A DNA stretch of 64,000 nt from Lycium barbarum (Eukaryota; Streptophyta; Magnoliopsida; Solanales; Solanaceae): NCBI RefSeq assembly GCF_019175385.1, contig NC_083341.1, positions 87,136,321-87,200,320 of the forward strand, read 5' to 3'. Made by a program: the position numbers and the translations under genes. The notes under the pieces are model-generated. The model saw only the letters and a list, made by a program, of their open reading frames with translations, made no database searches and was not told the origin of the DNA. Positions 29,064 to 59,423 of this stretch are shown here, piece after piece (position 1 is the stretch's first letter; every line of letters begins with the position of its first letter).

Positions 29064-29166
29064 ACTTCCCAGGGGGTCACCCATCATGGAATTGCTCCCA
29101 CCTGAGCACGCTTAACCCAAAAACTTCACTGGAATTCGGTGCCTTAATGCCGATATTTTTGCGTCC
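29064..29166 (-). other. 5S-rRNA-derived module in element B
   Basis: On the minus strand, 103 nt align without gaps to the first 103 nt of plant 5S rRNA, as I remember that sequence. The A-box block GTTAAGCGTGCT and the C-box block GATGGGTGACC are intact, followed by CCCTGGGAAGT. The first 48 nt are strongly diverged. Confidence 0.75.
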
Positions 29167-29773
29167 GCTTCCTCACATGACCTTTATTATATGTTCTGAA
29201 GCAAGTCGAAGTCTTACAGATTCTGGGACATTTCCGTAACACGTCCTTTCATTTATAATTACTATTTTGCCTTTCTCGATTTCCAATGTTCACCTTCCGT
29301 CTGTGTGTATGGCTACCTCCTCTCCTGGACTTCCAGATTCCCGATAGTAGTGATCGCACCTTCACCGCCACGCCAGACCCATAGGTCCTCTAGGACAACA
29401 CATCTCATTTATTGTATGTTTACGGCATTCCCTTTCTGCGTCTCCTTCTATTAAGCGTATTCATTCTAGTAGAACCTCCTCTACCACTCCTACTATTCAA
29501 AATCTGTCCGAAACAAATATCGACAATACTTCGCAAGACTTATGGCTATATGACATATTTCAGCCATCCAGAACTTCCAGTTCCAAGTAACAGAACAAAT
29601 GTCCCGACTTACCTTTGTGACTTGCCGTATCATCACTCACTTTCTTCCGTCGATACTAGGCGCCTACGGAATTCACGATTAGTAAAAGAAGTCTTATTTC
29701 CTATGACTTGGCTCTATCGCACGATATAAGCCAGAAAGAAGGCCAACATTTCCTAGATGCCCCGCAGCCTCCT

Positions 29774-29807
29774 GTTTATAAATGTGGCCGGCTTCACACC
29801 CATAAAC
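29774..29807 (-). other. Leader hairpin with self-complementary loop (element B)
   Basis: Arms GTTTATGGGTGTG and CACATTTATAAAC pair at all 13 positions (three G-U) around the loop AAGCCGGC, whose GCCGGC is a palindrome. Confidence 0.75.
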
Positions 29808-29854
29808 AGGATTCTACCGGACACGACTTTGCAGACAACCCTTAGACCGACCTG

Positions 29855-29865
29855 CTCTGATACCA
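29855..29865 (-). other. Primer-binding site of element B
   Basis: Minus strand TGGTATCAGAG, three bases inside the 5' LTR; initiator Met-tRNA type. Confidence 0.95.
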
Positions 29866-29980
29866 CTTTGTCACACCCCGACCTTACTAGGGTGTGATGG
29901 GCACCCGACCCCATATCCGGAGCCGAGCGAACCCGCTGACTCTTATTACATAGATAAACTCTTGTATCAATCAAGAATAG

Positions 29981-32508
29981 TGTCACGACCCGACTCGGGG
30001 CCGCGACGAGCACCCGGTGCTAACCCACCCGAGAACCCTCTTAGCTTACTCTTATACTTACATCTAGCTGATCCACATAATCATACATGCACTTCCATTC
30101 ATTCGTCAACTAGTCCCATATGGACAACCGCACCTTTATATCATCATAGGCATTCATGCCACATCAATATACATGGGCCAACGTGGCCGACAAAATGATA
30201 TACAAAACATAGGCCGACAAGGCCAAACACATCTACCCACACACACACATGTCTACGAGCCTCTAAGAGTATAACATATCACATTAGCGGGACAGGACCC
30301 CGCTATGCCCATAATTATATACACAAAAGAATGAGTACCCAAAAGATATGGCTCCGAAGGAAATGGAGCTCTCTATGAAATCTCCGACTAGGCAGCTAAG
30401 GATCAAGTTTGTCTCTCTGCGCACCTGCGGGCATGACGCAGCGTCCACAAACAAAAGGACGTCAGTACGAAGAATGTACTGAGTATGTAAGGCATGATCA
30501 ACATCAATATAGAAGCATAATAGATATCATATGAAGATAGCATAGGAGGGGAGACAGTAATATCATCATCATGTCGCTTACTTGCATACATCGTCGTTCG
30601 TATCCCATAGTAATACTCGTACCATACTTGTGCTCATATTCGTATACATGTCCTTATCCGTATTCCTATACATAGTCTTTTCACATTCATATTCATATTA
30701 TATACATAGTCATTTCATATACATAGCATTTACATAGCATACCCGACCTCATGGGATCGGTGTCTTATACATACTTGGCCAACCAAGGCTCAAGGTCATA
30801 CATACCTGGCCCTACCAAGGCATCAGGGTTATCCGTACCTTCTGCAGAAGTGTGCACGCGTTACGTAATCATATACATACTTGTACCTAGTTATATACAT
30901 ATAGTCTTACCCGGCATCATAAGCTCGGGGTCTTATTATAGCCCTTCATAGGCACACATACACATATATCGTAGCTCGTAAACATCTCTAGTCTCATTTT
31001 ACTCTCATCATCATTTCTATCCTCATCATTATCGTTACATTTACATTATAGACTTACTCGTCATACGAGGAACGTAGTATAAGCATAGTACATATCAAGG
31101 GTCGTGAGCTTATGAGCTCGGAATGTCAACCATGCGAAGACAACATACTCATATAGAGGAATTTAGGAGTTTGGCCAAGAACCATGACTTATGAAAGAAG
31201 GGTTGGCCTTACATACCTTTCCGTCGAACTATTCTACACTTGCACGTACTCCTTCGATGCTCACGTTTCTACCTTCATTAAGGCCATACTATCATTAGTA
31301 TCGATATCTAGTGCACATGGCTAAAGCTAGAGAAAATCGGACAGCATGTCCTATATCTATTCAACATTTGTCCATATCTTAATTCAACTCCCAAACGTCA
31401 ACAATACATTCATAATATCATGGCAATTGCCATTAATCATTCACATTATCCACATTCTTAAGTTTACTTCCATTTATCCACTTTCATGGTCATTTCACCC
31501 ATCTTCGTCCATTCGTCTAAAGTGTTTAGTTCATGATATTAATACCATCTATAACACATTCATATCACAACACAACAACATTCATAACTCAATTCAAACT
31601 ATTTCTCAAAATGTCACTATTCATCATTCATGACCTAGTTGACCACATTTTCTACAATCCATGTAGTTTAATTCTCCAATACCTTAAACATCTTGTAAAA
31701 ATCATGAATCTTACCTTAGAAGTTGTAGGAACAAGCTTTGGTTGATAATACTCTTCTTTGAACAAAACCCTACTTTTTCTCCATTTGGATTCTTGACTTG
31801 GATGATCCTTGATGATTCTTTTATCCTTGATCCACTTGTCTTGATGTTATTGATGGCTTATAATCCTTGAAAACTCATATAATAAATGTAGAGAGAAGTT
31901 TTAGAGAGAAGTGGTGTAATGTGGAAATGAAATAAGACAAGTCTTGATCCTCATATTTAATGAATTGTAAAATCTGAACTGGGTGAACAGTGGTCGTCCA
32001 AGGAGGTTTACGGTCCGTATTCCACTTTACGGACCGTCCCTCGTGGTCGTCTTTAAGCTTAAGCAGGACCAGAGACTTTGGCCTGCATGCATGGTGATTT
32101 ACGACCATGGTTTACGGGCCGTATATCACTTTACGGTCCGTCCACCAGGTCGTATTATACCCTTTCCTCGGCTGGCAGAGATTTTGAAGTTTGGCATGCC
32201 AGTTTACGACTTGGCAGTTTACGGACCGTATACCAGTTTACGGTCCGTATTTTGCACTTTACGACCACTGGCAGAAAGCTGAAGCTTTTGCATGGTGGTT
32301 TAAGACTGCCCAGTTTACGGACCGTGTTCCATATTACGGTCCGTATTACGCACAAAACGACCACTGGGCAATTTTTGCCAACTTCCAACTTTTCACATTC
32401 TAATCATTCTCGTCCCTTTTTATACATTTCCCATGAAACGTTATACACTCGCACACATCATTAGTTCATTTACTTGCGTACCAACGGGAAATTTTCTGAG
32501 GTGTAACA
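29981..32508 (-). mobile_element. Solo LTR G nested in the 5' LTR of B
   Basis: 2528 bp; minus-strand start TGTTACACCTCAG (32508), end CGGGTCGTGACA (29981). Perfect duplication AATAG (29976-29980 and 32509-32513); the empty site is seen in the other LTR of B near 24712-24716. Hairpin cassette 30423-30481, palindrome-pair array 32010-32344. No PBS or PPT, hence a solo LTR. Confidence 0.96.
32010..32344 (-). promoter_or_regulatory. Four palindrome pairs with exact 19-bp spacing in LTR G
   Basis: Nine-bp ACGGNCCGT palindromes start at 32010/32029, 32114/32133, 32221/32240 and 32317/32336, always 19 bp apart within a pair. Pairs are 104, 107 and 96 bp apart. In three pairs the centre bases differ and complement each other (T with A), so the two 9-mers are also perfect inverted repeats of one another. 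A TATA-like ATTAAATATG lies about 50 bp downstream in LTR sense (31952-31961). Confidence 0.7.
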
Positions 32509-33113
32509 AATAGAATACATAGTAAGCTCTAAACTTTTTTTTTTTCATAAGTAAAGTCTATCATCATGCGGGACCCGTGACATGAAACATAATAACATAT
32601 TGACTGGAGAAGCCATCTATAAAACTAACACTCTATACCCACGACTCTGTCTGCAAAGTCTCTAACATTGAACAAAACATCATGGCTCCTATACTCTGAC
32701 TCGGCAGCACTCCAGAACAAGAGGAGCCTACCAACCCCGCTGGAACATCTTCTATGATCGCTTCTGCTCATCTGGGTGTACCTGCGTGGCATGAAACGCA
32801 GCCCCCGAAGAAGAGGGGTCAGTACGAACAATGTACTGAGTATATAAGGCAAGAGTAATAACATAAGATCATGGTAGAAGACATAGAGAAATGTATATAG
32901 TAAGAACATAACTTGTACCTCTGTTTGCCTCTTAATGCAGATATCATGTAAGCTAACTTTCCCTTTTGAAACGACATATAAATATTTACATGTAAACTGC
33001 CCAACCATATAGGTACGGTGTACTTCTGTCTGAGTATATCATGGGACAAAGAGTAACCTGAACATATGAGTGCCTCTGAGGGCGGATGCCATGCATGCTT
33101 TATTCTGGTCACG

Positions 33114-33243
33114 TCATATCATGTCGTATCATATCATATCATGTCATATCATATCATATCATATCATATCATATCATATCATATCATATCATATCATATC
33201 ATATCATATCATATCATGTCATATCATATCATGTCATATCATA
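33114..33243. repeat. (TCATA)26 microsatellite, 5' LTR of B
   Basis: 130 bp, the same length as the copy in the 3' LTR. Confidence 0.95.
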
Positions 33244-35938
33244 GCACCGAACAAGTCGGCTCGCCCACATTGCGCCGAAATACATCGGCTCGCCCATATA
33301 TCCAGCGTCCGGGCATCCCACGTCCGGGATGATAACGCCAGCTGACCAGGTGGCAATGAAACATGTTTCCCTTCCCCCACCCCATGTACATATTCATATC
33401 TCATACACTTATGTCATATAAGCATGCAGGAGAGCCCAAAGAAAATCATGTATCCATCGGAGTGACGTAAGGTCGGTGACCTCCGATTACATTATGGAAC
33501 AATCGTGATCGCTTTGTCTCACCGTGAAGGAACGAGTATTATAAGGCGAGACTATCAACGGAGAATAGTGTTGAAAGAAATATAGAATGAAATCTTGGAT
33601 GTCATAGAAATTAATTCATCTGTTTTGGAATCTTTAGAGGATAGTGTCATAACCAAGGAATAGAATTAAAAATCAAGAACTAGTTTGATACTTTCATACG
33701 CATATGGAATCCTTAGCTTAAAACTCTTAGTCATGGAATCATCCTTGTCATACTTATCATAGGCATATTCTCTTTCTTAACATCATCGTTATCATTGTCA
33801 TCGTAGAAGTATCCTCGTTAGCATAGTCACAGTACTTGCCATTTGATGAACGGAATAAGGATCAAAAGTTTCCTTTCGATTCTGCTTCAAAATAAGTCAA
33901 ACGGAGCAATAAGAAAAATCCGGGAACAATGGGCCCACCTCGGGTCAAATGAGGCGGCGTACCAAATTCACGTACACTACATTTCATGACGTCACTTGTG
34001 AGGGTTTTAAGGTAATCGGGTCATAATTATGCAAGTTCTAGATGTTTAGGAGGTTTCTCCAACATTTCACACACTTTCTAATTCAATTCTACTGAATGAA
34101 AAAGGGGAAACTTTAGGTGTGGATTCCGGAGAATAGAGTTGTCCCCGAGGCTCGTATCCAACCTAGTATGCCTAAGACATGCCAAAGAAGGAAGGGTAAA
34201 GCCTTACATACCTTTTTCCGCTTCTTACGCTCCTCCAAATTCAAGTTCCAATTTCTCCAAAATCTACATTTGGTCACATTTACCAAACATTAATTAGGGC
34301 ATTTAGAAGTTGATTCTTAAAGTAGCATTTGTCTACCGAAATTTCGGCAGCACCTCCCCTATAAATACACCATCCCCAAAACTTCAACTTAGCCAATTTA
34401 ATCATCAACAATCCGGGAATTCAACCCGGCCAAATAATCAACAATACCAACAATTATACTAGCGGCACTTCAACAATCAATTTTATTCAATTCAATTCAC
34501 ATAGTCTTTCAACAACCTTCATTCTTCACCGCATAATCCATCACGACGACAACTAGAACGTCAAATAACATCAATTTACATTAACTTACCAAAACACCTA
34601 TTATTCGACCATAACTACTTCTTACATATTTTCATGCATTCTCATCCATCCCTTTTCATTACAACAACAACATAACAATCAAAATACTAAATAGAATTGT
34701 TTCGTTTTCTCCTACACCATTCAAGGACCACACGGCCACCACCCTTTATACATACTTCCATGAATTTTTCACTCATTTCTTAGCATTTCAAGAACAACCA
34801 ACATGCTACATACACTACATGCATATTTTCATAAATTCTCATCTTCTCATACATTTCAACAACAATAGCAATCAAATTACTAAATAATATTAATTCATCA
34901 TTTCAATCCAACACCACACATATATTCGGCCAACATGCAACACACATACCTTCATTTAGTTCATTCATTTCTTCAACCTACAACATATATGAACCATCCA
35001 CAACACACAAAGGAGATGAAACCTTACCTTTTTCTTCAACTTCCCACTTGATTTAGGGTTGGTAAATGACACCAAAAAGACTTCTACTTGTTTCAACACT
35101 TACTCCATGTTGTAGAGAACCTCCAAATGAACTAGAATATTAGGAGGAAATAATTTTTCCTTATCAATTTTCCATGGCTAGATTTTGCTAGCCATGGCCG
35201 AATTCTCCACCCCTTTTTTTTTTTTTTTCTTTCTTGCTTTCTAGTTTCTTCACTTAAAAGATGATTCCTTATATTTATATATAAGCCTTCCACCACTTTT
35301 CCCTATTTGCATCTTAGTCCCTCAAGTATGGCCTCATGTCCCTTTTCTTCTTCTTCTAGAGTTTTCCTCTTTTTTCTAGATTTTTCTTTTCTTTTCTTAA
35401 ATTTCCTCACTTGGTCAAAGAAGACCAAGTGTCTTCTTTTGTACACCTTATTCCATCTATATTTACACTTTCCCCCCTTCACTTATGAAATGGCCACATG
35501 CTCCTTTCTTTATTTTCCTAGAGAATTCTTCCATTTTCTTGAATTTTCTTAAAAATGAATAAAGAAGACTAAGTGTCTTCCTTTGTAAGCTTTTGTCCAT
35601 ATGTCCTTATAATTTATAATTAGGCCCCCACTAATTAATAGAAATGTGGACATATGCAACACATGCCACACGGCCAACTTGGGATTTTTTCAAGAATTTT
35701 CTTGAACATTTGCGAAATTACCATTTTACCCTTAGACTTCCATGATATCACCATGGGCCATTTTGTGAATTTTCCTCTTCGCCCTTAGTCTTTCTCAATA
35801 TTCCATATCAACGATATTCCTAGTTAGCTTTCAAAACCCACTTGCGCATTAAAATAGTTTTGGAAACGATCTTGCCCTCAACATTCGACGACTTCTTCAA
35901 ATCATGTGTACGTATGAAGTACGGGCTATAACAATAAG

Positions 35939-38389: not shown

Positions 38390-40933
38390 TGTCACACCCT
38401 AATCTTGATCAGGGCGTGATGGGCACCCGACCATTATTTAGGGTCGAGCGAACCCTCTGACTCTTAGTACACACATAATCCCTTTGGACTCTTAAATCAA
38501 ATAAAAATGAACCACATAGTTAAGGCTTTCAGAAATATTCTATTCGTCGTTCTCACGTCAAGTAAAATCTGTAATCATATGGAGTTTGTAACATAATGCA
38601 TAATAGTACATCGGCTTACAGAGCCGCTTACAAGACTGACAACCCACATACGTGACTTTGTCTGCAAAGTCTCTAACATTAATCAGAAATCATAACATAT
38701 ATACCCTGACTCGGCAACACTCCGGAAGGAAGTGGAGCTCGCCAATCCCGTTGAAACACCTTCTAGCAGAGTCTTCTACTCATCTGGGTGTACCTGCGTG
38801 GCATGAAACGCAGCCCCCGAAGAAAGGGGGTCAGGACGGAGAATGTACTGAGCATGTAAGGCATGAAATACAGTAAAGGATCATAACTGAAATGGAGATT
38901 TACCAGAAACAAATATGACTTTTAAAAACATCAATGCACTTGCCTTTTGAAATGAAAATCCTGCATACCATTATCATAAACCGTACCCGGCCCATTATGG
39001 GACTCGGTGGATAAAATCATGTCATCACATTATCATATCATCATGCATGCATATATATAAATATATATACCGTACCTGGCCCTCTAGTGAGGGACTCGGT
39101 GAATGAAGTCATACCGTACCCAGCCCATCTTCGGACTCGGTGCCATAATCATGTCATCATATACATTTACCGTACCCGGCCAATCATGGGACTCGGTGCC
39201 ATAATCATATCATCATATACATATACCGTACCCGGCCCTCTAATGAGGGACTCGGTGAACAATGCAGTGGAATACGCACGATAACATATCCTGGCCCGGG
39301 ACTCAGGGAAAGATACATTGAGGCATGCACGAGCAGAGTAGTGAGAAACTGTATGCACATAAATAAATTTTCAAGACTCGATAAATAGGTACGCTAGCCG
39401 ACACTTGAAGGATCACAAACACGTCGCGGGTCAATCCGAGTTAGTATAAGAAAGTTATGGACATTTTAGTACAGAAACCTCTACGAACGTTTCAGAAGCT
39501 AACTTTGGAAAATCAAAGCAATAGTCATATCAAGTACCATTCGAATATCGCTATGGCTCAAATCAAAATAGAACTTTTGGAACCACACGCATGTATCAAG
39601 ACATAACAAAACAGTTTTCGAAAGTCAAGAACATTAGCCATCGTAGTGGCTCTAAGAATAGGAGTTTTTGAAATCGTACATATACATTGTCTGTTCGTTT
39701 CACAAGGATCATGCCAAAAGAAAGAAAGGGTAAGCCTTACATACCTGGAAGATGATTCTCAACTTTCAACTTACTTCCCGTCTTGCAACTCGCGTAAGAA
39801 TTATCCGTAGCCTCGTACTCTACATATGGAATCATTCATAATATCATTAGGATCATCGTCGTACGTTCGTCTCGAGACTTTAATTAAAACCCTATTAAAT
39901 TCTGCCGAAATTCGAGCAGCATTTCCCCTGTTTATATGCCTAGCCTGAAATTCCAATTCAACAACCAACAACATCAACAACAATACCAATAGTATTAACA
40001 TCATTTCCAATATCGACGTATGCCATAAAACAGCCCGCACACTGTTTTCTAAATTTCTCAACCAACCAAATTTGCGATATAACTATTTAATAATTTTATT
40101 TCCGTAAAGAAGCTGAAATTAATACCAATAACATTAATAACAACATCCTCCACATTTTACAAGTTAAATACATTTATTATCATCCAAAATGTTCTTCAAG
40201 TTTCATTCCATAATTCAGAACACCAACAAACGAATTTATCAGGTTATTCTCTCCGTGCTAATCCGTCGAAACTCTAAATAAACTCGTTAACAATGAAAAT
40301 GAACCTTTTTTCATACCTTAAGCATGCAGCCACCACGTTATCACTCTTCTCCTTGGTTGATTGTTAGCTCAAATTGAAGACAATGCAGAGTACAACAATT
40401 TTCCCTTCATGGGCTTTGGGATTCGGGGCTCAGATTTCGATCAAAATTGATTTTTCTTCTCCAAGACTCTTTTTCTCTCTCTCCCCAGAATTTTCTGGGC
40501 GTTCCTGGTCTTAAAATGAGGAGGAAGGCCGAAATTTTCTCTTATAAAGACATGGGTAATGGGCCTAACCCAGTTGGGCTCATATTGGGCCTAGCCCACT
40601 GACCTTTCTGCCTTAAAATGTCCATATCTCCTTATTACGACATCATCTGTGGACCCACGACCTATGGTGGGAATGTAATTCAAATATATACAACTTATAT
40701 TTCTTGGTATTTTTTCAAATTCCAAACTTATAATACCGTTTCTTCCCCTCGAATTCAGATCACCCGAAAACGTTACTTAAAAATATTTGTTTGGAGGACT
40801 TCCACTTTGATTCGGCTCAAGGGTCCTTCTTGAGTTGTGTTCAAATTCACATATGTGCTTCATATAACTTGTCATGTGTCCTTAAAAAAAATTTCGACGT
40901 GTGGGCCCCACCTCAGCTTATAAATAATCCGAC
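38390..40933 (-). repeat. 3' LTR of element A, distal piece
   Basis: LTR 3' end at 38390 (GGGTGTGACA on the minus strand). Hairpin cassette 38792-38850. Tandem 'ccgtacccgg...ggactcggtg' units 38980-39255. Minus-strand TTTATAAGA near 40543-40551 is a possible TATA box. The remaining 119 bp lie beyond T at 55784-55902. Confidence 0.92.
38980..39255. repeat. Tandem hairpin repeats in the 3' LTR of A
   Basis: About five units of roughly 55 bp, each beginning ACCGTACCYGGCC and ending GGACTCGGT. ACCG/CGGT form an outer stem. The inner stem changes between units but often stays complementary: CCCAT with ATGGG, CCCTC with GAGGG. The 5' LTR has the same array at 60928-61204. Confidence 0.75.
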
Positions 40934-41325
40934 TGTTGTATCCCGTATTTTTAAACGTCAGATTATTTGCTGAGATGGGACCCACACATCGAGATTTTTT
41001 TGGGAAATCTGAAAACTCATATGAATCACATATGAGAAGTTAAACACAACTCAAGAAGGACCCTTGGGCCAAATCAAAGTGGAAGTCCTCCAAACGAATA
41101 TTTTAAGAAAACGTTTTCGGGTGATCTGACTTCAAGGGGCAAAAACGGTATTATAAGTTTGGAATTTGGAAAAGTACCAAGCACTAGAAGTTGTAGATAA
41201 TTGAATTAGCTTTCCAACCATAGGTCGTGGGTGCCCAGGTGACGTCGGTACAAGGAGATATGAATGTTTTAAGGTCGAAAGGTCAGTGGGCTAGGCCCAA
41301 CTCGGGACCAAACCGAGTTGGCCCA
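40560..41325. repeat. Inverted repeat formed where T inserted into a related LTR
   Basis: The minus-strand 5' part of the LTR of A (about 40560-40928) and the plus-strand start of LTR1 of T (about 40957-41325) are homologous, roughly 85% by eye, in inverted orientation with a spacer of about 25 bp. Confidence 0.8.
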
Positions 41326-44346: not shown

Positions 44347-44393
44347 AGTTCAGTCCTAGGGGTTTGTCTACGAGCCGTGTCCAGTAGAGTCTT

Positions 44394-44427: not shown

Positions 44428-44532
44428 AGGAGGCTACAGGGCATTTAGGAAATGTGACCTTCTTTGCATTCTGAAATCGTGCGATAGAGCTAAGTTGCCA
44501 GGCTTCCATATTCCTTTTCCTAAACTTGTGTT

Positions 44533-46090: not shown

Positions 46091-46187
46091 ACCGTAAATA
46101 AAAGAAGAGATGTGTTACGCGGCGTTTCGAAAACTGCTAAGACCCCAACTCGTTCCATAAAATGTGATATAAGTAGTACGAGGGAGT

Positions 46188-46290
46188 GCGGGCGAAAATA
46201 CTAACGCTAAGACGCTGAAATGCACTAAAGTTTCAAGGTTAAGCGTGCTAGGGTGAGAGTAATTTCATGATGGGTGACCCCCTGGGAAAT
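46188..46290 (+). other. 5S-rRNA-derived module, first interior of T
   Basis: 103 nt that align without gaps to plant 5S positions 1-103 as remembered. The A-box block GTTAAGCGTGCT and GATGGGTGACC are intact; the 5' half is strongly diverged. It lies downstream of gag and about 300 bp before the PPT. Confidence 0.72.
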
Positions 46291-46581
46291 ATGCTGAAAT
46301 TTTCACAAATGTGGGAACAAGAGACGAATGTGAAGCTAGGTAGTCCAATGTAAATTAAAGTGTGTGGAGTGGTTACAAACCCTATAAAAGTCATGTAGGC
46401 TGAGACGGACAAGACTAACGGAAGAGGAGAAAGCGTGACAGAAAGGGGGCTTATTAACGTAGGGCCAACGTTCAGAGGTTACTCAATGGACTTACGACAT
46501 AAAAGCGACCTAAGCGACATGTGAGATGTCTACGAAGGAGACCTCCCCGAAGTATTATGATACACTATGAGGCCAGTTTAA

Positions 46582-46622
46582 CATTCGAGGACGAATATTC
46601 TAAAGGGGGGGAGGGGGGGAGA
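46582..46622 (+). other. PPT with degenerate palindrome, first interior of T
   Basis: CATTCGAGGACGAATA (46582-46597, one mismatch from the palindrome in A, B and C) followed by a purine run 46602-46622 directly before LTR2. Confidence 0.9.
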
Positions 46623-46623
46623 A

Positions 46624-49600
46624 TGTTGTATCCTGTATTTTTTAACGTCAGATTATTTGCTGAGATGGGACCCACACATCGAGATTTTTTTGGGACATCT
46701 GAAAACTTATATGAATCACATATGAGAAGTTAAACACAACTCAAGAAGGACCCTTGGGCCAAATCAAAGTGTAAGTCCTCCAAACGAATATTTTAAGAAA
46801 ACGTTTTCGGGTGATCTGACTTCAAGGGGCAAAAACGGTATTATAAGTTTGGAATTTGGAAAAGTACCAAGCACTAGAAGTTGTAGATAATTGAATTATC
46901 TTTCCAACCATAGGTCGTGGGTGCCCAGGTGACGTCGGTACAAGGAGATATGAACGTTTTAAGTCGAAAGGTCAGTGGGCTAGGCCCAAGTCGGGACCAA
47001 ACCGAGTTGGCCCAAAAAAATCAACAAAAATAATAAGGCCCAAATTTGTGAGGCCCAATCGGCCATGGTTATGGCCCAAGCCCATATTAAATAAAATTTG
47101 ATCAATAAATAAGATGACTAAGTCATCTTATTCCACATAATGTTCTAGAAATTTCAAGAAAAGCAAGAACAAGAGAGAGAGGAGAAAAACTTAAGGCCAT
47201 TTCGGCCAAGAGCAATTTTCACAAGAAAATTTTTCAAAAATTCTCCAAAAATCATTTTCTACCAAGTAAAGGGTGATTAACAAGGTGGAGTTGTTGTTGG
47301 AGCAAGAAAAATTCAAAATCATACAAGTTGTCAAGTTGTAGTCAAGTGAGAAGTTGAAGAAGAAAGGTGAGTTTTGATCTTGTTTTATGTGTTATATATG
47401 GTTTATATGTGTTGTAGTATGCTAAAATGGATGAAATTCATGAAGGAGAGAAATATAGTATATGGCCGTGTATATATATATGTGTGTGGGAGTCATGCTT
47501 CAATTATTTTAATTAGTGTTTAGTTGTTATTGTTGTGAATGATATGTGGAAAATGGGAGTTGAATGAGTTTGGAGAGATTGTAGTGGTGTATACATGTTG
47601 GAGCCGTGTGAGTGTGCATGGTATATGTGGTCGTGTACACTTGATGTATAGTCGTGTATATTGGTGAGTTGTGAAAGAATAATGAGCGAGTTGTAATTAA
47701 TGTCTTAATCGTTGTGTTGTAGATGTTATATCGCAAATAAAGACTTGACAAGTTTGGTGAAGTATTGGCAATTGGAAGTTTGTGTAAATTGAAAATAATG
47801 TTTTGTATGGAAGACATGTAATGGTATTACTATGATGTTCTTGGAATATATGTATTATAACGTTATTGTTGTTTCATTGAAATTGGAGAGTATTGAAGGC
47901 GGTAGAATGTTAATTGAAGTGTTGGAATGCACCTTGAATGGAATATGTGAATTTTTAGTGTGATTGTTGAATTATGTTAATAGTTTGGCCGGGTTTGAAT
48001 TCCCGGATTGTGATTGATGAGAATTTGGCTATGTTGAATGTTGAGGATGGTATATTTACAGAGGAAGTGCTGCCGAAATTTCGGTAGCCAAGTGGTTCGT
48101 TAAGATTCTAACTCTAAGTACCCTAATGAAAGTTTGGGTAAATGTGACCAATTTGCAGATTTTGACGAGATTGCAACGTGAATTCGGAATAGCAAAAGAA
48201 GCGGAAAGAGGTATGTAAGGCTTCACCCTTCTTTCTATGGCATGTCTTAGTTGAAATAAGTTGGGTACGAGCCTCGGGGACAACTCGGTTCCCCGGAATC
48301 CGCACCTAAAGTTTTCCACTTTTTGTTCAATAGAATTGAACTAGAAAGTGTGCCAATTGTTGGAAAAACCTCCTACACCCATAGAACTTGTATAAATGGG
48401 ACCCGATTACCCTAAGACCCTCACAAGTAACGCTATGACACGTAACATACGTAAATCGTATACGCTACCTCATCCGGCCCGAGGTGGGCCCACTACCCTC
48501 GGTTTTTTCCTTACAGTCTTGCTTGACTTACTTGAAGTGAATCCAAAGGGAACCTTTGATCCCGATTTCGATACCAAATGATATATACTATGACTCCTCT
48601 AACGAGGGCACTTCCATGACGATAATGATAACAATGATGTTAGATAAGAGAATATGCCTATGATACGTACTACCGGAACGACTCTATGACTAAGATGACT
48701 AAGCTAAGTATCTTATGTAAACATGGAAATGATAAACTAATTTTTGAATCTTATTTATATTTCCTAGCTATGACTTTATTTTCTAAAAGATTTCAAAGTC
48801 TATGAACCGTCATCTATGATGCCCCGATTTCATTCTACGTTTACTTTAATATTATTCCCCGTTGCTGTCTCACCTTAAAATACTCGTTCCTTCAAGGTGA
48901 GACAAAGCGATCACGAGTATTCTATAATATAATTGGAGGTCACCGACCTTACGTCACTCCGATGACTACATGATTCTTATTTGGGATTTCCTGCGTGCCT
49001 ATGAGACATATGTATATAGGATACGTAAATGCATATAAGACATGTAAATGTATGTAAGATATGCGTATATATTTTTTTAAAACATGCACATGACGAAAGA
49101 GCTAGAGCGCTATAGACGCTGATGTACCTACACGACACACGTATATGTACATGATAAAAGAGCTAGAGCGCTATAGACGCTGATGTACCTACACGACACA
49201 CGTATATGTACATGATAAAAGAGCTAGAGCGCTATAGACGCTGATATATGTACATGATATATGCATGTGTATACGGGGAAAATGGAGGTAAGGGCAGAGC
49301 GTTATGAACGCATATCCACCTGATCAGTTGGCATTACATGATATGATATCGTCCCGGACGCGGGATGTGTATATTTATGGTTAAATGGATCGGCTGCCGA
49401 CGCCTCGGCAATATGAGATGTCCTATTTTATATGTATATGTATATGTATATGAACAAGGAAAGATTCTTAAAGGAAAGCTAAGTACGCATAGCACCTGCC
49501 AAGGGTATATATATATACAGGTTATGTTTCTATCCCAGGACATGTGTTGTAACTCTCTTATGTCATTATACATGATTCATATTTTCTGTATATTACTATT

Positions 49601-50083
49601 CATGCCTTACATACTCGGTACACTATTCGTACTGACGTCCCTTCTTGTGGACGCTGCGTTTCATGCCGCGCAGGTCAGCAGACAGGCGGATTTGATCCTT
49701 AGAAGCTCTACCAGCAGTGTTGACAGTGCTCCAGTTATTCCGGAGCCTCACTTCCTTGGTACTATTTTGTGTATATATATTCGGGCATGGCAGTACTCAG
49801 CCCTTTCTATGTATAAGTGTACTACGTCTAGAGGCTCGTAGACAGATATGTACAGTCAGTTAAGTATAGTTAGGTATATGGTGTTTTGGCATGCTAATGT
49901 TGATGTATAAGTGATAACGAAGTTTATTAGTCTATGTTCAGAATGACGCCGCTAATGTTAATGTTCAAAAAAAAAAAAGGCTCTGTTTACATGGCTTGCT
50001 AAGAGGTAAAGGTAAAACGATAGACAAGGGGTGCTCGGTACAAGTATCGGGTACTCGTCACGGCCCCTAGACGGGTCGTGACA
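46624..50083 (+). repeat. LTR2 (middle) of element T
   Basis: 3460 bp. It has three 61-bp units (49096, 49157, 49218) where LTR1 and LTR3 have two. TTACGTCA 48949-48956, hairpin cassette 49616-49675. Shared by both interiors, as 3' LTR of the first and 5' LTR of the second. Confidence 0.95.
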
Positions 50084-50087
50084 GAAG

Positions 50088-50099
50088 TGGTATCAGAGC
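50088..50099 (+). other. PBS, second interior of T
   Basis: TGGTATCAGAGC. Confidence 0.95.
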
Positions 50100-50146
50100 A
50101 GTTCGGTCCTAGGGGTTTGTGTACGAGCCGTGTCCAGTAGAGTCTT

Positions 50147-50180
50147 ATTTATGGGTGTGTAGCGCGCCACACTTATAAAC
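50147..50180 (+). other. Leader hairpin, second interior of T
   Basis: As in the first interior, but the first base is A, which loses the outermost pair. The loop TAGCGCGC is unchanged. Confidence 0.72.
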
Positions 50181-50285
50181 AGGAGGCTACAGAGCATTTA
50201 GGAAATGTGACCTTCTTTGCATTCTGAAATCGTGCGATAGAGCTAAGTTGCCAGGCTTCCATATTCCTTTTCCTAAACCTGTGTT

Positions 50286-51842
50286 ATGGTTTCAGTAATG
50301 CCGCCGAAGAAAAAGGCTACGATGGCCCAGAAAGCCAAGGGGGTGGCGGCCAGCAGAGTTGAACGGGAGCTAGAAGAAGAAGAATCTCATAATGAGGCTC
50401 CCCCTCAGACTGTTCCTGCTCCCCCTGCACCAGCAGAGCAGGAAAGAGTTCCAGCTCCAGCCCCCGCACCTCCAGTTCCACCGCCAGCAGTTCCGGGCCA
50501 GCAGATGGCAGAGGCCATCCAGTTATTAACCCAACTCGTTGCCGCACAGGCTCAGCGGCAAGATGTAGACCTGGGAGGCAGAGCGATAAGTGCAAGGGCC
50601 CGCGACTTTATCACCCTGAAGCCTCTAGAGTTTTATGGATCAAAATCAGAGTTGGACCCGCAGAGTTTTATAGATGAGATGCTGAGGACTCTGGGGATCA
50701 TACATGCTTCGGATACGGAGTCCGTAGAGTTGGCTTCATACAGGCTGCGGGATGTGGCAGTTCTGTGGTACAGTAGCTGGATATCATCGAGGGGAGAAAA
50801 TGCACCCCCTCCGGTTTGGCAGGAGTTCACTGAGGCGTTCCTGCGACATTTCCTACCGCCAGAGGTTCGACGGGCTCGAGCCGATATGTTTTTGAACCTG
50901 AGACAGGGAAATATGAGCGTTCGAGAATACAGCCTCCGTTTTAATTCATTAGCCAGGTATGCCCCAGCCATGATAGCGGATAAGGGAGATCATGTACACC
51001 GATTAGTGAGTGGGCTAGGGCCACATTTGGTTAAGGAATGTTTGACAGCTTCACTCCAGGACGGGATGACTATTACTCAAATCCAGTCCCACGCCCAAAA
51101 TCTGGAGGAACAATATCAGCCACGGCGAGAGGAGCGTTACCCAGATAGGGGTTCCAGAAAAAGGGGCAGGTTTTCCAGGACTAGAAGCGAGTACAGAGGG
51201 GGACAGGCACAAGAGCTATTCAGTCATTCAGAACAACCGGCGGCCAGTGCACCGCCTCGATTTACGGATAGGGGACTTGACCGTTCTACTCACTCACGAC
51301 CAGATCAGGGTACTAAGGCGTAAGGATCCCAGTATAGAGCTGATTCTAGCAGGATGATGCCACCCCCGCCACGGTGTGCGCGATGTGGTAGACCACATTC
51401 TGGAGAGTGTCGCGCAGGTACAGGTGCATGTTATACTTGTGGGCGGGTTGGCCATTTGATGCATGATTGCCCACTGAGGTATGAGGGAGACCAAGCCCAG
51501 CCCGTCGGGTCCGCGGTTGGTTCATCGTCGACCGTACGCCCACTTGGACAGACCTCCCAAGCTCCAGCGGGCCGCGGCCGAGGTAGAGGAGGGACACCTA
51601 GTTCAGCTGGTCCTCCGCACCGCCTATATGCATTGACAGGACGACAGGACCCTGAGCCTTCCGCAGACGCGGCCACAGGTACTTTTTCGGCACCTTCTAT
51701 GATGTGTATGTTAATTGATTCGGATTCTATCCTGTCCTACGTTGCCTTTATATTGCTGATCATATTAAGAATTCAGAAATTAGGACGAAAGGTAGCCATA
51801 CGCACAGGTAAAAAGACGAATACTAGAGATTGCGGAGGTTAG
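50286..51842 (+). pseudogene. gag: gag, copy 2 of element T
   Basis: The frame is open for 345 codons to a TAA at 51321-51323, where copy 1 has TCA (Ser). It then resumes in the same frame for 162 more codons to 51842, through CARCGRPHSGEC and CYTCGRVGHLMHDC, an Arg/Gly-rich RGRGRGG segment and the protease start IDSDSILSYVAF. The family motif there is I-D-S/P-G-S-T-L-S-Y, so the active-site Gly is Asp. The sequence then leaves protease (LIILRIQKLGRKVAIRTGKK), marking the internal deletion that removed pol. One nonsense mutation; otherwise the better-kept copy. Confidence 0.93.
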
Positions 51843-51940
51843 AACCGTAAATAAAAGAAGAGATGTGTTACGCGGCGTTTCGAAAACTGCTAAGACCCCA
51901 ACTCGTTCCATAAAATGTGATATAAGTAGTACGAGGGAGT

Positions 51941-52043
51941 GCGGGCGAAAATACTAACGCTAAGACGCTGAAATGCACTAAAGTTTCAAGGTTAAGCGTG
52001 CTAGGGTGAGAGTAATTTCATGATGGGTGACCCCCTGGGAAAT
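51941..52043 (+). other. 5S-rRNA-derived module, second interior of T
   Basis: Same 103-nt module as at 46188-46290, with GTTAAGCGTGCT and GATGGGTGACC intact. Confidence 0.72.
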
Positions 52044-52334
52044 ATGCTGAAATTTTCACAAATGTGGGAACAAGAGACGAATGTGAAGCTAGGTAGTCCA
52101 ATGTAAATTAGAGTGTGTGGAGTGGTTACAAAGCCTATAAAAGTCATGTAGGCTGAGACGGACAAGACTAACGGGAGAGGAGAAAGCGTGACAGAAAGGG
52201 GACTTATTAACGTAGGGCCAACGTTCAGAGCTTACTCAATGGACTTACGACATAAAAGCGACCTAAGCGACATGTGAGATGTCTACGAAGGAGACCTCCC
52301 CGAAGTATTATGATACACTATGAGGCCAGTTTAA

Positions 52335-52371
52335 CATTCGAGGAAGAATATTCTAAAGGGGGGGGGGGAGA
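52335..52371 (+). other. PPT, second interior of T
   Basis: A purine run 52355-52371 before LTR3; the preceding palindrome is further decayed (CATTCGAGGAAGAATA). Confidence 0.88.
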
Positions 52372-52372
52372 A

Positions 52373-55300
52373 TGTTGTATCCCGTATTTTTGAACGTCAG
52401 ATTATTTGCTGAGATGGGACCCACACATCGAGATTTTTTTGGGACATCTGAAAAATTATATGAATCACATATGAGAAGTTAAACACAACTCAAGAAGGAC
52501 CCTTGGGCCAAATCAAAGTGGAAGTCCTCCAAATGAATATTTTAAGAAAACGTTTTCGGGTGATCTGCCTTCAAGGGGCAAAAATGGTATTATAAGTTTG
52601 GAATTTGGAAAAGTACCAAGCACTAGAAGTTGTAGATAATTGAATTAGCTTTCCAACCATAGATCGTGGGTGCCCAGGTGACGTCGGTACAAGGAGATAT
52701 GAACGTTTTAAGGTCGAAAGGTCAGTGGGCTAGGCCCAAGTCGGGACCAAACCGAGTTGGCCCAAAAAAATCAAAAGAAATAATAAGGCCCAAATTTGTG
52801 AGGCCCAATCGGCCATGGTTATGGCCCAAGCCCATATTAAATAAAATTTTATCAATAAATAAGATGACTAAGTCATCTTATTCCACATAATGTTCTAGAA
52901 ATTTCAAGAAAAGCAAGAACAAGAGAGAGAGGAGAAAAACTTAAGGCCATTTCGGCCAAGAGCAATTTTCACAAGAAAAATTTGCAAAAATTCTCCAAAA
53001 ATCATTTTCTACCAAGTAAAGGGTGATTAACAAGGTGGAGTTGTTGTTGGAGCAAGAAAAATTCAAAATCATACAAGTTGTCAAGTTGTAGTCAAGTGAG
53101 AAGTTGAAGAAGAAAGGTGAGTTTTGATCTTGTTTTATGTGTTATATATGGTTTATATGTGTTGTAGTATGCTAAAATGGATGAAATTCATGAAGGAGAG
53201 AAATATAGTATATGGCCGTGTATATATATATGTGTGTGGGAGTCATGCTTCAATTATTTTAATTAGTGTTTAGTTGTTATTGTTGTGAATGATATGTGGA
53301 AAATGGAAGTTGAATGAGTTTGGAGAGATTGTAGTGGTGTATACATGTTGGAGCCGTGTGAGTGTGCATGGTATATGTGGCCGTGTATACTTGATGTATA
53401 GTCGTGTATATTGGTGAGTTGTGAAAGAATAATGAGCGAGTTGTAATTAATATCTTAATCGTTGTGTTGTAGATGTTATATCGCAAATAAAGACTTGACA
53501 AGTTTGGTGAAGTATTGGCAATTGGAAGTTTGTGTAAATTGAAAATAATGTTTTTGTATGGAAGACATGTAATGGTATTACTATGATGTTCTTGGAATAT
53601 ATGTATTATAAGGTTATTGTTGTTTCATTGAAATTGGAGAGTATTGAAGGAGGTAGAATGTTAATTGAAGTGTTGGAATGCACCTTGAATGGAATATGTG
53701 AATTTTTAGTGTGATTGTTGAATTATGTTAATAGTTTGGCCGGGTTTGAATTCCCGGATTGTGATTGATGAGAATTTGGCTATGTTGAATGTTGAGGATG
53801 ATATATTTACAGAGGAAGTGCTGCCGAAATTTCGGTAGCCAAGTGGTTCCTTAAGATTCTAACTCTAAGTACCATAATGAAAGTTTGGGTAAATGTGACC
53901 AATTTGCAGATTTTGACGAGATTGCAACGTGAATTCGGAATAGCAAAAGAAGCGGAAAGAGGTATGTAAGGCTTCACCCTTCTTTCTATGGCATGTCTTA
54001 GTTGAAATAAGTTGGGTACGAGCCTCGGGGACAACTCGGTTCCCCGGAATCCGCACCTAAAGTTTTCCACTTTTTGTTCAATAGAATTGAACTAGAAAGT
54101 GTGCCAATTGTTGGAAAAACCTCCTACACCCTTAGAACTTGTATAAATGGGACCCGATTACCCTAAGACCCTCACAAGTAACGCTATGACACGTAACATA
54201 CGTAAATCGTATAAGCTACCTCATCCGGCCCGAGGTGGGCCCGCTACCCTCGGTTTTTTCCTTACAGTCTTGCTTGACTTACTTGAAGTGAATCCAAAGG
54301 GAACCTTTGATCCCGATTTCGATACCAAATGATAAATACTATGACTCCTCTAACGAGGGAACTTCCTTGACGATAATGATAACAATGATGTTAGATAAGA
54401 GAATATGCCTATGATACGTACTACCGGAACGACTCTATGACTAAGATGACTAAGCTAAGTATCTTATGTAAACATGGAAATGATAAACTAATTTTTGAAT
54501 CTTATTTATATTTCCTAGCAATGACTTTATTTTCTAAAAGATTTCAAAGTCTATGAACCGTCATCTATGATGCCCCGATTTCATTCTACGTTTACTTTAA
54601 TATTATTCCCCGTTGGTAGTCTCACCTTAAAATACTCGTTCCTTCAAGGTGAGACAAAGCGATCACGAGTATTCTATAATATAATTGGAGGTCACCGACC
54701 TTACGTCACTCCGATGACTACATGATTCTTCTTTGGGATTTCCTGCGTGCCTATGAGACATATGTATATAGGATACGTAAATGCATATAAGACATGTAAA
54801 TGTATGTAAGATATGTGTATATATATTTTTTTAAAACATGCACATGACGAAAGAGCTAGAGCGCTATAGACGCTGATGTACCTACACGACACACGTATAT
54901 GTATATGATAAAAGAGCTAGATCGCTATAGACGCTGATATATGTACATGATATATGCATGTGTATACGGGGAAAATGGAGGTAAGGGCAGAGCGTTATGA
55001 ACGCATATCCACCTGATCAGTTGGCATTACATGATATGATATCGTCCCGGACGCGGGATGTGTATATTTATGGTTAAATGGATCGGCTGCCGACGCCTCG
55101 GCAATATGAGATGTCCTATTTTATATGTATATGTATATGTATATGAACAAGGAAAGATTCTTAAAGGAAAGCTAAGTACGCATAGCACCTGCCAAGGGTA
55201 TATATATATACAGGTTATGTTTCTATCCCAGGACATGTGTTGTAACTCTCTTATGTCATTATACATGATTCATATTTTCTGTATATTACTATTCATGCCT

Positions 55301-55778
55301 TACATACTCGGTACACTATTCGTACTGACGTCCCTTCTTGTGGACGCTGCGTTTCATGCCGCGCAGGTCAGCAGACAGGCGGATTTGATCCTTAGAAGCT
55401 CTACCAGCAGAGTTGACAGTGCTCCAGTTATTCCGGAGCCTCACTTCCTTGGTACTATTTTGTGTATATATATTCGGGCATGGCAGTACTCAGCCCTTTC
55501 TATGTATAAGTGTACTACGTCTAGAGGCTCGTAGACAGATATGTACAGTCAGTTAAGTATAGTTAGGTATATGGTGTTTTGGCATGCTAATGTTGATGTA
55601 TAAGTGATAACGAAGTTTATTAGTCTATGTTCAGAATGACGCCGCTAATGTTATTGTTCAAAAAAAAAAAAAAGGCTCTGTTTACATGGCTTGCTAAGAG
55701 GTAAAGGTAAAACGATAGACAAGGGGTGCTCGGTACAAGTATCGGGTACTCGTCACGGCCCCTAGACGGGTCGTGACA
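52373..55778 (+). repeat. LTR3 of element T
   Basis: 3406 bp. Two 61-bp units (54850, 54911), TTACGTCA 54701-54708, hairpin cassette 55309-55368. Followed by the outer duplication CCGAC and then the rest of the LTR of A. Confidence 0.95.
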
Positions 55779-55783
55779 CCGAC

Positions 55784-55902
55784 GTACAAAAGTACAGAAT
55801 ACAACATTATCAACGTGAGTTTAAATTATGTGGCAACAACATGATTGACAATTTTGAGGAAGCGCGTGTCACGCTCATGCTCTGAAAATGTGGGGTATAA
55901 CA
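55784..55902 (-). repeat. 3' LTR of element A, 5'-end piece
   Basis: The 119 bp that begin the 3' LTR of A on the minus strand (TGTTATACCCC at 55902), matching 62883-63001 in the 5' LTR. Separated from 40933 by T. Confidence 0.93.
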
Positions 55903-55941
55903 TCCTCCCCCCCCCCCTTTAAAAACATTCGTCCTCGAATG
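55903..55941 (-). other. PPT and adjoining palindrome of element A
   Basis: C-rich 55903-55917 and CATTCG-TCCT-CGAATG at 55926-55941. Confidence 0.9.
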
Positions 55942-58900
55942 TTGAGGTAGAGTTCGCTCCGAGGTAGATATCGATGTTTTTACCTGTATTTGTCCGTATC
56001 TACTTTACTTACTTGCAGTCTTACTTGCTCATTAAAACTGAACTTATCTGAATTATGCAATGTATTCTTCTTCTTTTGTGGCCAAAGTTTACGCCTGAAC
56101 TCAAGGTCATCCCTTTTTCTTATTATTCGTTTGTCCACTAACTCTTTACACTTTATCGCTTTCATCGTCTCTTCAGTCTTCGTTGTTTACATTCTTGTAT
56201 GCCCCTTTCATGCCGTGCTTACCACATACTTTTATCTAATTCGATCTCATTTTCTTTTTGTTAAGAAATTCTTGTTTTCTTCGATCTCCACGTATCTTTC
56301 TTATGTTGCATAGATATCCCAAGACTTTATCTCCTTGGAGTTGACTTATTCCTATTCTTACTTCCTTAAAGATAAATTCAAGACTGGTCATATCTAGCGT
56401 CCCCTGCTTAACTAGTTTAACACTGAAATGTCCCGCTTAATTTCTCTTCCCTTCAATCAGACTCCCGGCACCTGGCTAGCTAACAGTTATTTTTGCACTT
56501 ATGTCAAAAACATTTCAAACATCTTCTTTAATGATTTATTTCCTTCTGTTTATTCTGAAAGTTTCTAATCCTTATTTTGGCTACTAACTTAGGGGTGAAT
56601 TCAGAAGTTTGTCGAAAAATAACCAAGATTCTTGAATCATGCGGCGAATTCAGATCTTTTCATTCTTGCTTTTATCTGTATCCTCCATTTGTCCCTTTTC
56701 CAATAAGATCCATCATATTGCTTCTCCAGTGATACTTTATATTCATATCATTTCATCTTCTTTTTAATACTTTTGTCGTACTTCTTAATTCCTTACAATG
56801 TCATCATAATTCCGCCGATGGTAGCGCCCAGATGGCTTGCAATAGCACTTCCTTGCTAATGACGGATCATTCTCATTAACTACCTTACCTCAGGTTACTC
56901 ATCCAATGCGTCGAAAATACCGTAGCTAAGGGATTTATAGTCAAATGAGACTCAATTCGACCCATACAACGATCCTCAGCACCATTTCTTATACTCTTGT
57001 ATATAATATTTTCTCATCATCATTGTTATCCCTCAGGACACAAGAGTATACTTACAACATACTATTCCACTTTTCAAAATATTTTCAAACCCTTGTATGA
57101 ATCTTTCCTCCAAACTCTTCTCCTCTGATCTGAACGTCATTACAAAATAACTCATAAGTAGGAGGCTAATAGAGATTTAACGAGATTCCGTTCTTCTTCA
57201 AATATTTATTGTCATTTCCACACTATTTTACTAGTGATTTCGTCAGAACGATCATTTATGTGGTCCTATGACATATACTCCCACGATTTGATACATAAAC
57301 GGTGACCTATGATTTCATGATGCAGGAGGTGTTTTCCAAATCTCAGGTAGCACTTCTGTCATGCTATCCATAGGCATATTTCCTTTTTTCCTTTTAACAA
57401 GCATTGAGATTCCTATAAATATTCCTCTTTTAAAACTCTCATTCCTTCCAACGTCGCGATTTTTCTTTAGTAATCCCGTCTGTCCTCATACTTATCCTTG
57501 GTTACTCGTAGGCGTTTCTCACTTCCTCCGTGACCTTTTTGGAGTATGCCTGCTACATATTTATTTGCAACAAAATTTCTCCGGTACGAGCGATTCGAAT
57601 CATAGCCCGGGACACAACGTATTGCTTGACAAAACTTATTTCCTTGATTCTTCTAAACCTTTATTATCATGTCATGCCTCCTTTCCCATGTCGGTTTCGT
57701 AATATACCTGAATTTAGTCCAATTTCACTTTTTTTTTTGAGTTGACTTCCTCTTTCATCATGCTTGCTATCAGTCCTGACATTGCAAAACCTGTTAAGTC
57801 GTTTCCTCGCTGTACTTTACTTACTTTGTATTGTAGTTCTTGCTACGTTCTCATTATATCCCAATCATAATCAACTCTATAGAGTACCATTTCTTGATCT
57901 CATTCGTAACACTGCTTATAAAACAGAATAAAGCTCGTGGAGTAAGCTTACTTAACCGGTAACTCTTTCTAATTGACCCTATTACACTTACCACATAAGT
58001 TGTCTTACCAAGTTATTCACATTCATTACAAACCTTAGTATTCTATGCCCCTGTCCCCGTCACGCTGTTACTTCGTTTTACTAATAGACTAATCGCATTT
58101 CCCTTGTAGTTATCCATCCCAATCAATCCTTTATTTATCTTTTTGATGCCACGACCAAGTTTGTCTTCTCCTCCACGCATGTTTCTTACATTTCATTCTA
58201 TTTCTTTTATAATCGAACCTCTCGGTCTTGACAGAAGTTCTTGCCTCATATCACTAATTTTCTAATCAATTGTGTCAACTCACCATCCTCGTTCTTTCCT
58301 TGATGAGTAATCGGTCTCCTACCGTCATTTAGTTAAAGTATCCTTCTTACTCCCATGGTTAGAGATTTCCAGTTACTCCACTCCTAAATGCTCTCCTCTT
58401 CCTTCGACCAACCCATTAGTATACCTTTCCTACTTTCATTCTTAACCTTCCCTGGGTCTATTCCTCCTCGAGTACCTTTCTTCTCTTGTTATTTGTAACA
58501 TCGGCTCTGAAGTTCGTGAAATATTCCTTTAGACGCGCAAATCCGTCCTATTCTTAAGTCATTCTTTCAGGAAAGCTCCTCCATGTCTGAGGCAACCATA
58601 TTAATATGGTCGCACATTTATCCCTTTATATACCTTTCAAGGGCCGAAATCTCCTAACATCGACGCAAGGCTTAATCATTCCTTCTCTTACTTCATATTC
58701 CTCTTCTGTTCCATATTACCATACTCTATCCCCTTCATATGCCTACCTTCGAATTTTTACCCAAATAGTCTCGTGCTTTGCTCGTCGTTTCTTTTGGAGG
58801 CTTTGCTCAATCATGTTTCTTACTTTTCACTTTTTCCGACATTTTGATCTCCTTGCCTTCTATTTACTCACTCTCTTTCTTTTCCAAATATCATTGTATT

Positions 58901-59320
58901 AGAATTTTCCAATCTTAACCTGTAGTGAAAATAATAGCAGCTTACCGTATAACACAGGTACCATTTATTCTTGTTGTCACTTGATCTTCGGTACCATTAC
59001 TCGATTGATGCCTTCCATACCGTAGCACCGATTGCTGGGACACACATGCCCACCGATACAATCACATGTGGGATATCATACGCATTCATATATATGTATA
59101 TATAATTACTACCATCTCGCCTACAAAATATTTCCAAATGCTATTCAACCTCATCCTAGTTCTAGAGTCGCGGTGCACCTTCTTTCTCTTCACCGGTCTA
59201 GTCTGCCTCGTCCTACGTGACCTCTTATGGTCTCCAACCATCCCGTATTTTCTAGTTTCCCTTAGGCTACTCTAGCTTCTCATTTGTCTCTTATGTCTAA
59301 ATCTATAGGGCTTTTAGTAC

Positions 59321-59423
59321 ACTTCCCAGGGGGTCACCCATTCCAGTATTTCTCTCACCCTAGCACGCTTAACCTCGAAACTTTGATGAAATCCGGTGCA
59401 TTAGTACTGATATAATCGCATCC
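59321..59423 (-). other. 5S-rRNA-derived module in element A (best preserved)
   Basis: On the minus strand it starts GGATGCGATTATATCAG and runs 103 nt to CCCTGGGAAGT. About 86 of 103 positions match plant 5S rRNA as I remember it, without gaps, and most mismatches are transitions. A-box GTTAAGCGTGCT at 59362-59373; C-box region ATGGGTGACC within 59325-59344. Confidence 0.8.

Follow-up and report, generated by a model that had tools for sequence, protein, structure and literature searches.

A 5S rRNA-derived module with conserved RNA polymerase III control boxes in the interior of long non-autonomous LTR retrotransposons of Lycium barbarum

Introduction

The closest described relatives of the elements treated here are the Cassandra terminal-repeat retrotransposons in miniature (TRIMs), which Kalendar is said to have reported in 2008. 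The present elements, named T, A and B, are long terminal repeat (LTR) retrotransposons of Lycium barbarum that carry a piece of the 5S ribosomal RNA (5S) gene in their interior, and they lie in a stretch of 64,000 nt of NC_083341.1 (the window) in a host genome of 1.67 Gb. Cassandra likewise has a captured 5S piece in element sense with boxes A, IE (intermediate element) and C kept and variable motifs between them (PMC10853983), and it is non-autonomous, has a methionine primer-binding site (PBS) and has been reported in tandem LTR-interior arrays (PMC10853983; PMC7215508). It differs in having its 5S in the LTRs, before the PBS, of elements of 563-968 bp (PMC10853983), whereas here the 5S piece is interior and the LTRs measure 2.7-3.5 kb. 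Of the features that mark Cassandra, the 5S control region with boxes A, IE and C in element sense was found in the Lycium elements; a position within the LTR, 5-200 nt before the PBS, and a miniature size under about 1 kb were not. The core of the published Cassandra pattern matches only the A copy among the four 5S pieces of the window, and a looser form matches all four; the full pattern with PBS has no match in the window and the fetched loci that were scanned, and the elements are therefore not Cassandra (PMC7215508).

Other mobile elements share parts of this organization. Ajax, a TRIM of nemerteans, has a partial 5S with the promoter part kept, but places it in the LTRs of elements of 421-434 bp and is probably of independent origin (PMC10886601). 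SINE3 and other 5S-derived short interspersed elements (SINEs) also have a 5S-derived RNA polymerase III (pol III) promoter, but are moved by non-LTR elements and carry the promoter at the 5' head (PMC10886601). Terminal-repeat retrotransposons with a gag domain (TR-GAG) and large retrotransposon derivatives (LARDs) are alike in general build: T has gag, A and B are without an open reading frame (ORF) of at least 150 aa in the interior, and LTRs, PBS, polypurine tract (PPT) and target duplications are present; the definitions of these classes do not include a 5S module (PMC6022998). Among the titles and abstract openings listed in a literature search with thin coverage of subscription journals, none describes long LTR elements with a 5S module between their LTRs.

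Results

The 5S-derived module

The module occurs in element sense in T, A and B, all of which are non-autonomous, and T has it in each of two interiors (modules T1 and T2):

46188-46290, forward strand: 5S module of the first T interior (T1), identical to T2; Rfam 26.4 bits
51941-52043, forward strand: 5S module of the second T interior (T2); Rfam 26.4 bits; 71/103 identical to host 5S positions 1-103
59321-59423, reverse strand: 5S module of A; Rfam 51.7 bits; 87/103 identical to host 5S
29064-29166, reverse strand: 5S module of B; Rfam 22.5 bits, below the gathering score; 73/103 identical to host 5S

The reference was the 5S gene of the same genome, which has an array on contig C6 and three further places on C11 (contigs C1 to C12 measure 107-172 Mb). 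The identities given above are gap-free over positions 1-103, and the best values reached in 20,000 letter shuffles per module were 47 for T2, 43 for A and 44 for B. Over host positions 104-119, identity is just 3/16 (A), 2/16 (B) and 4/16 (T2), so that 5S likeness stops at position 103, six bases past box C. The limits of the boxes, which we take to be 50-64 for box A, 67-72 for IE and 80-97 for box C from plant 5S work, give 39 columns in the alignments below. The first-pass annotation had placed these modules correctly in coordinates, strand and length, and the gap-free 5S origin that it proposed is upheld by identities of 71-87/103 to host 5S against at most 47 in the shuffles. All four modules are present as it said, but they count as three independent ones, because T is a tandem of LTR-interior-LTR-interior-LTR and T1 and T2 show no difference over 103 nt.

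The covariance-model check that had been suggested gave a divided result. With the Rfam 5S model RF00001 (gathering score 38), A scores above the gathering score (59305-59423, reverse strand, E 7e-8), but T1 and T2 (E 0.35 each) and B (E 3.6) fall below it. With as many as 3 mismatches allowed, the 19-nt box C string has four matches in the window, all exact, where 0.01 are expected; the 12-nt box A string, with 1 mismatch allowed, also has four, all exact, where 0.11 are expected. The Rfam scan and a module profile together give just the four interior places in the window. None is a full-length 5S gene with both helix I strands: the match stops at 103, and of the 9 pairs of helix I, each of five copies retains 2-5 and host 5S all 9. 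A pattern scan of IMG/VR and of prokaryote genomes gave 0 matches, as expected of a plant element.

A homologous block and a single capture

The module lies in a block of about 380 nt that is homologous in T, A and B, as delimited with a profile built from T2, A and B:

46053-46428, forward strand: homologous block, first T interior
51806-52181, forward strand: homologous block, second T interior
59183-59561, reverse strand: homologous block, A
28925-29303, reverse strand: homologous block, B

A coding role of the block was rejected, since all six frames are interrupted by two or more stops in T1, T2, A and B. The module had been described as standing before the PPT in T and nearer the PBS in A and B. 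The distances do differ (5' LTR to module 1,857 nt in T, 914 nt in A and 702 nt in B; module to 3' LTR 333 nt, 3,418 nt and 931 nt, respectively), but the block is the same, and the unequal distances are due to the presence or absence of gag and to other differences in interior length, not to separate capture sites.

Common origin had been argued from a shared C for T in the box C region. That mark fails, since host 5S itself has the C. One origin is nevertheless supported by eight other changes from host 5S that T2, A and B share (positions 34, 41, 43, 44, 46, 50, 67 and 75) and by the homologous flanks, and a single capture is the best reading of both. Two further groups of copies introduced below form exceptions, D having the 5S state at 41 and G at 67. 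Within the module, T2 and B share 16 derived states, T2 and A 9, and A and B 9, though the flanks of A and B are closer; the module of A is also nearer host 5S than the modules of the other two elements. This conflict between module and flanks may reflect the partial conversion of A by a sequence resembling 5S.

Copies and groups in the genome

Exact matches to the box A plus IE pattern GTTAAGCGTGCTNNGGTGNGAG number 4,960 in the genome, 2,479 of them forward and 2,481 reverse, and the reversed pattern, used as control, has 0 and 0. Genome searches with the A, T, B and D blocks covered the best 40 places each, of 6,540, 3,733, 4,849 and 5,464 first-look candidates, respectively. D is a fourth group, taken from a neighbouring stretch (L014); E and F were found via the pattern places (F through L127), and G via the search with F. 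Module-bearing elements thus fall into seven groups (T, A, B, D, E, F and G) in three deep lineages, A/B/D/E, T, and F/G. In the flanks, A, B, D and E are 0.77-0.93 identical to one another and 0.60-0.64 to T (A 0.63, B 0.60, D 0.63). The change A50G is the common state of all seven groups, and C67T is that of every group but G.

Group F is the youngest seen: the search with it listed 20 places that are 97-100% identical along almost the full query, and two partial ones. Between F and G, 7 of 121 upstream columns, 2 of 49 at module positions 1-49 and 77 of 127 downstream columns differ; F looks chimeric, with the joint near the interval between IE and box C, because the two groups are alike upstream and in the module and unlike downstream. 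Box spacing is kept in T, A and B and also in G, where 17 places were listed at 89-90% and each of the 12 that were fetched has it. Many of the listed F places are near contig ends, e.g., C2:0.09 and 152.0 Mb, C7:133.1 Mb and C8:127.4 Mb.

Conservation of the control boxes

For the comparison of boxes with flanks, 85 copies were chosen by whole-block similarity (T 22, A 21, B 21, D 21), 20 of the 40 places listed per group being added to the copies found before. E copies had been picked by the exact box A plus IE pattern and were excluded from the singleton count. Between T, A, B and D, 4 of the 39 box columns differ, against 134 of 275 flank columns, with 42 and 246 singletons, respectively (Fisher p = 0.00017 for differences against singletons; the groups are related, and the columns are not independent of the tree). 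Positions 1-49, with 25 between-group differences and 59 singletons, behave like flanks (p = 0.38).

Single copies give a similar picture. When T2, A and a single G copy are compared, the boxes vary in 5 of their 39 columns and the flank in 150 of 248 (p = 1.6e-8); this wide flank takes in the downstream part, where G has little likeness, and the comparison with the nearest 60 columns on each side (62/121 variable, p = 1.4e-5) is therefore set beside it. Positions 1-49 are again like flanks (27/49 variable). In the comparison of groups, the 18-column windows of the block with the least divergence lie on box C, with 0-1 differences, followed by box A, with 2; among the 378 block columns of T2, A, B and a G copy the longest invariant runs are 83-101 (box C) and 50-62 (box A); T2, A and B alone give the same two. 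Columns between the boxes (63-64 and 73-79) are variable, as MotIE and MotC of Cassandra are also reported to be (PMC10853983).

The preferential retention of pol III control boxes proposed in the first-pass annotation is borne out by these between-group counts. The opposite outcome that it had named, boxes no more conserved than flanks, is not seen among T, A, B and D or in the single copies of T, A and G, but within groups the boxes do decay like flanks and gain singletons at least as fast. The pattern fits selection on the promoter sequence better than selection on a 5S-shaped RNA, and near-constant boxes amid drifting DNA suggest that the elements still use them.

Structure of the elements

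Self-comparison and inspection of the ends identified T, A and B as three complete LTR elements, and the mapped LTRs and PBSs agree with the earlier placement of the module in the interior of long gypsy-type elements, in element sense. T was inserted in the 3' LTR of A, and its target duplication is the 5-bp CCGAC at 40929-40933 and 55779-55783. The features of T are as follows:

40934-55778, forward strand: element T (LTR 40934-44330, interior 44331-46623, LTR 46624-50083, interior 50084-52372, LTR 52373-55778)
44335-44345, forward strand: T PBS TGGTATCAGAG; second copy at 50088-50098
44524-45366, forward strand: gag capsid ORF of the first interior
50277-51842, forward strand: gag of the second interior (capsid ORF 50277-51323 and CCHC ORF 51324-51842, in one frame with a single stop between them)

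T gag matches PF03732 (gag) and the zinc knuckle PF00098, and the order in the interior is PBS, gag (capsid and zinc knuckle), block and PPT. The interiors, of 2,293 and 2,289 nt, are too short for pol beside gag; in our own reading, made without a profile match, the start of a protease may be present. T fits the TR-GAG class, having LTRs, PBS, PPT and only gag or gag plus protease. The initiator-methionine PBS and GAGGACGAA before the PPT resemble those of the Tekay/Del chromovirus lineage.

A is flanked on both sides by the target duplication AAGAA, and the 5' LTR of B is split by a nested insertion:

60338-63001, reverse strand: A 5' LTR (the 3' LTR, split by T, is 55779-55902 plus 38390-40933)
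60324-60334, reverse strand: A PBS (interior 55903-60337, with the PPT just before 55902)
29869-35933, reverse strand: B 5' LTR, in the parts 35933-32509 and 29980-29869, split by the insertion 29981-32508
24599-28132, reverse strand: B 3' LTR (target duplication CTTAT; interior 28133-29868)
29855-29865, reverse strand: B PBS

The insertion at 29981-32508 is 2.5 kb long, with a target duplication AATAG and TGT...ACA ends, and is probably a solo LTR. The interiors of A and B contain no ORF of at least 150 aa, decayed or frameshifted coding sequence not having been searched there, and both elements look like LARDs. Element C (12799-23849) has reverse transcriptase and RNase H matches, LTRs about 91% identical and a gag homologous to that of T; the homology ends at 51766 in T, and the T block starts at 51806. 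C was considered as an autonomous carrier of the module and rejected, since the block profile has no match in it at E up to 5.

The tandem LTR-interior-LTR-interior-LTR order of T (40934-55778) has a counterpart in L127 (C1:11.51 Mb), where the tandem is 100% identical. Evenly spaced module copies occur at C11:27.527-27.541 Mb, C9:62.601-62.617 Mb and C4:58.254-58.268 Mb, and the module spacings at tandem places are 4,956; 7,092; 8,083 and 8,068; and 7,480 and 7,478 nt. These arrays resemble the tandem arrays described for Cassandra. At 40862-41022, Rfam MIR6140 has a match below threshold (42.3 bits, cut-off 140); the match is a hairpin that arises at the insertion point of T, where the LTRs of A and T begin in opposite orientations, and the MIR6140 family itself may be LTR-derived.

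Discussion

A putative internal promoter in the element interior

The likeliest role of the module is that of a TFIIIA-type pol III promoter or of a binding platform in the element interior, a reading of the conserved boxes to which we give about an even chance. On this model, a Ty3-type LTR element of this plant lineage acquired, in a single event, a 5S gene fragment (positions 1-103, ending past the internal control region by six bases) in a non-coding part of its interior, and non-autonomous descendants carried it on, in seven groups, three deep lineages and thousands of copies. The origin, place, orientation and copy number of the module and the near-constancy of its boxes are shown by the data above. 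The constraint itself would act on DNA, the boxes working from within the integrated parent copy either as an internal pol III promoter of the TFIIIA-dependent type 1 or as a TFIIIA/TFIIIC platform. They might yield a short sense RNA out of the interior, or TFIIIA/TFIIIC held on them might keep the chromatin of the parent copy open for LTR-driven transcription by RNA polymerase II (pol II). T and G have four or five consecutive T at about 113 nt from the module start. In type 1 pol III promoters the start lies upstream of the boxes. A transcript begun at the module would be without R, U5 and PBS, and so could be neither a full genomic RNA nor the template of a whole new copy, unlike one from Cassandra, whose boxes are in the LTR.

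Several observations weigh against a promoter or platform. The T run near +113 is absent in the A, B, D and F copies examined, and the upstream signals of plant 5S genes at -28, -12 and -1 are not recognisably kept. The strongest objection comes from group F: all seven fetched copies lack 9-10 nt between IE and box C, and each has gained a C within box C and a base just ahead of box A. Since F has spread with this altered gap, strict box spacing is not needed for its spread; either the boxes can tolerate losing roughly one turn of the helix, or F has spread without the function. The statistical power comes mostly from T and G against the rest: within A, B, D and E, p = 0.043, and the pairs A-B, A-D and B-D taken alone show no significant box excess. 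Between F and G the boxes differ in 6 of 39 columns and the upstream flank in 7 of 121 (gap columns counted), again with no box excess. A linear RNA signal, moreover, would yield the identical pattern.

Alternative explanations

Such a linear signal, with the box A and box C strings reused in RNA or DNA as a cis motif unrelated to pol III (packaging, dimerisation or binding of an RNA-binding protein), agrees with conserved columns that are interior, are present in every genomic RNA and survive the altered spacing of F. We regard it as unlikely, since the conserved columns coincide with box A and box C and with no other part of the 103 nt, and a new use needs no such limits. Rather improbable, too, is an RNA-level 5S mimic, in which a domain of the element RNA, folded like 5S, would bind L5, TFIIIA or some other partner of 5S and so serve nuclear export, retention or packaging. 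Helix III keeps 7-8 of 8 pairs in T2, A, B and D and helix IV 5/5 in all five copies counted, pairs 34-41 and 31-46 are altered on both sides, and a joint null for helix III with base-specific permutation gives p 0.03-0.13 depending on the region permuted (against a reference 5S); the pair-retention null for helices II and III gives p 0.06-0.09 with the same permutation. A null from random substitutions had given p 0.004-0.007 per module, but was set aside, as it is weakened by base-specific permutation and helix III is broken in the G copy (5/8). Helix I keeps only 4/9 pairs in A, 3/9 in T2, 2/9 in B and 5/9 in D and G, and helix V 2/5 in A, T2 and D, 3/5 in B and 1/5 in G, the 3' strands of both falling beyond 103, outside the match. 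Minimum free energies are no better than those of shuffles (z -0.07 to +1.31), and the stretch that supplies the 5' strands of helices II and III (positions 1-49) evolves as flanks do. The 5S-like RNA traffic once suggested for the module is not upheld, given helices I and V mostly lost, unconstrained positions 1-49 and folding like that of shuffles.

A neutral fossil, i.e., a hitchhiking 5S piece whose boxes are alike by chance, mutational coldness or slow decay, would account for the free decay of positions 1-49, for the lack of a box excess between F and G and for the many copies with changed boxes (copies that match the group state throughout the 39 positions are 5/21 in A, 10/21 in B, 1/21 in D and 19/22 in T). 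It is very improbable in view of the 42 singletons in 39 box columns and 246 in 275 flank columns, yet few between-group changes in the boxes (p = 0.00017). Gene conversion by real 5S arrays or by other 5S-bearing elements could also keep boxes alike, and A (87/103) and D (83/103) are nearer host 5S than T2 (71) and B (73) despite alike flank identity to T. Its probability is nevertheless the smallest of all, as conversion would have left A50G uncorrected in seven groups and C67T in all but G, the positions between boxes and 1-49 are not homogenised, and none of the copies compared continues the match beyond 103.

Significance

The 5S-bearing LTR elements of the literature considered here, Cassandra and Ajax, are miniature and have the 5S in the LTR (PMC10853983; PMC10886601). 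The promoter or platform reading would add, tentatively and with somewhat less than an even chance, a third architecture of 5S-promoter capture, in which a TFIIIA/pol III region inside long non-autonomous Ty3 elements was maintained by selection in thousands of copies of no fewer than three deep lineages and acts in cis on the parent copy instead of starting the genomic RNA as in Cassandra. The comparison of between-group differences with singletons is based on copies and can be repeated in any related genome, and the elements would offer a direct test of a pol III promoter role inside an LTR element. If the reading is true, large pol II elements with thousands of selected 5S control regions would constitute a large hidden pool of potential TFIIIA sites, which could titrate TFIIIA and confuse 5S copy counts and fluorescence in situ hybridization (FISH).

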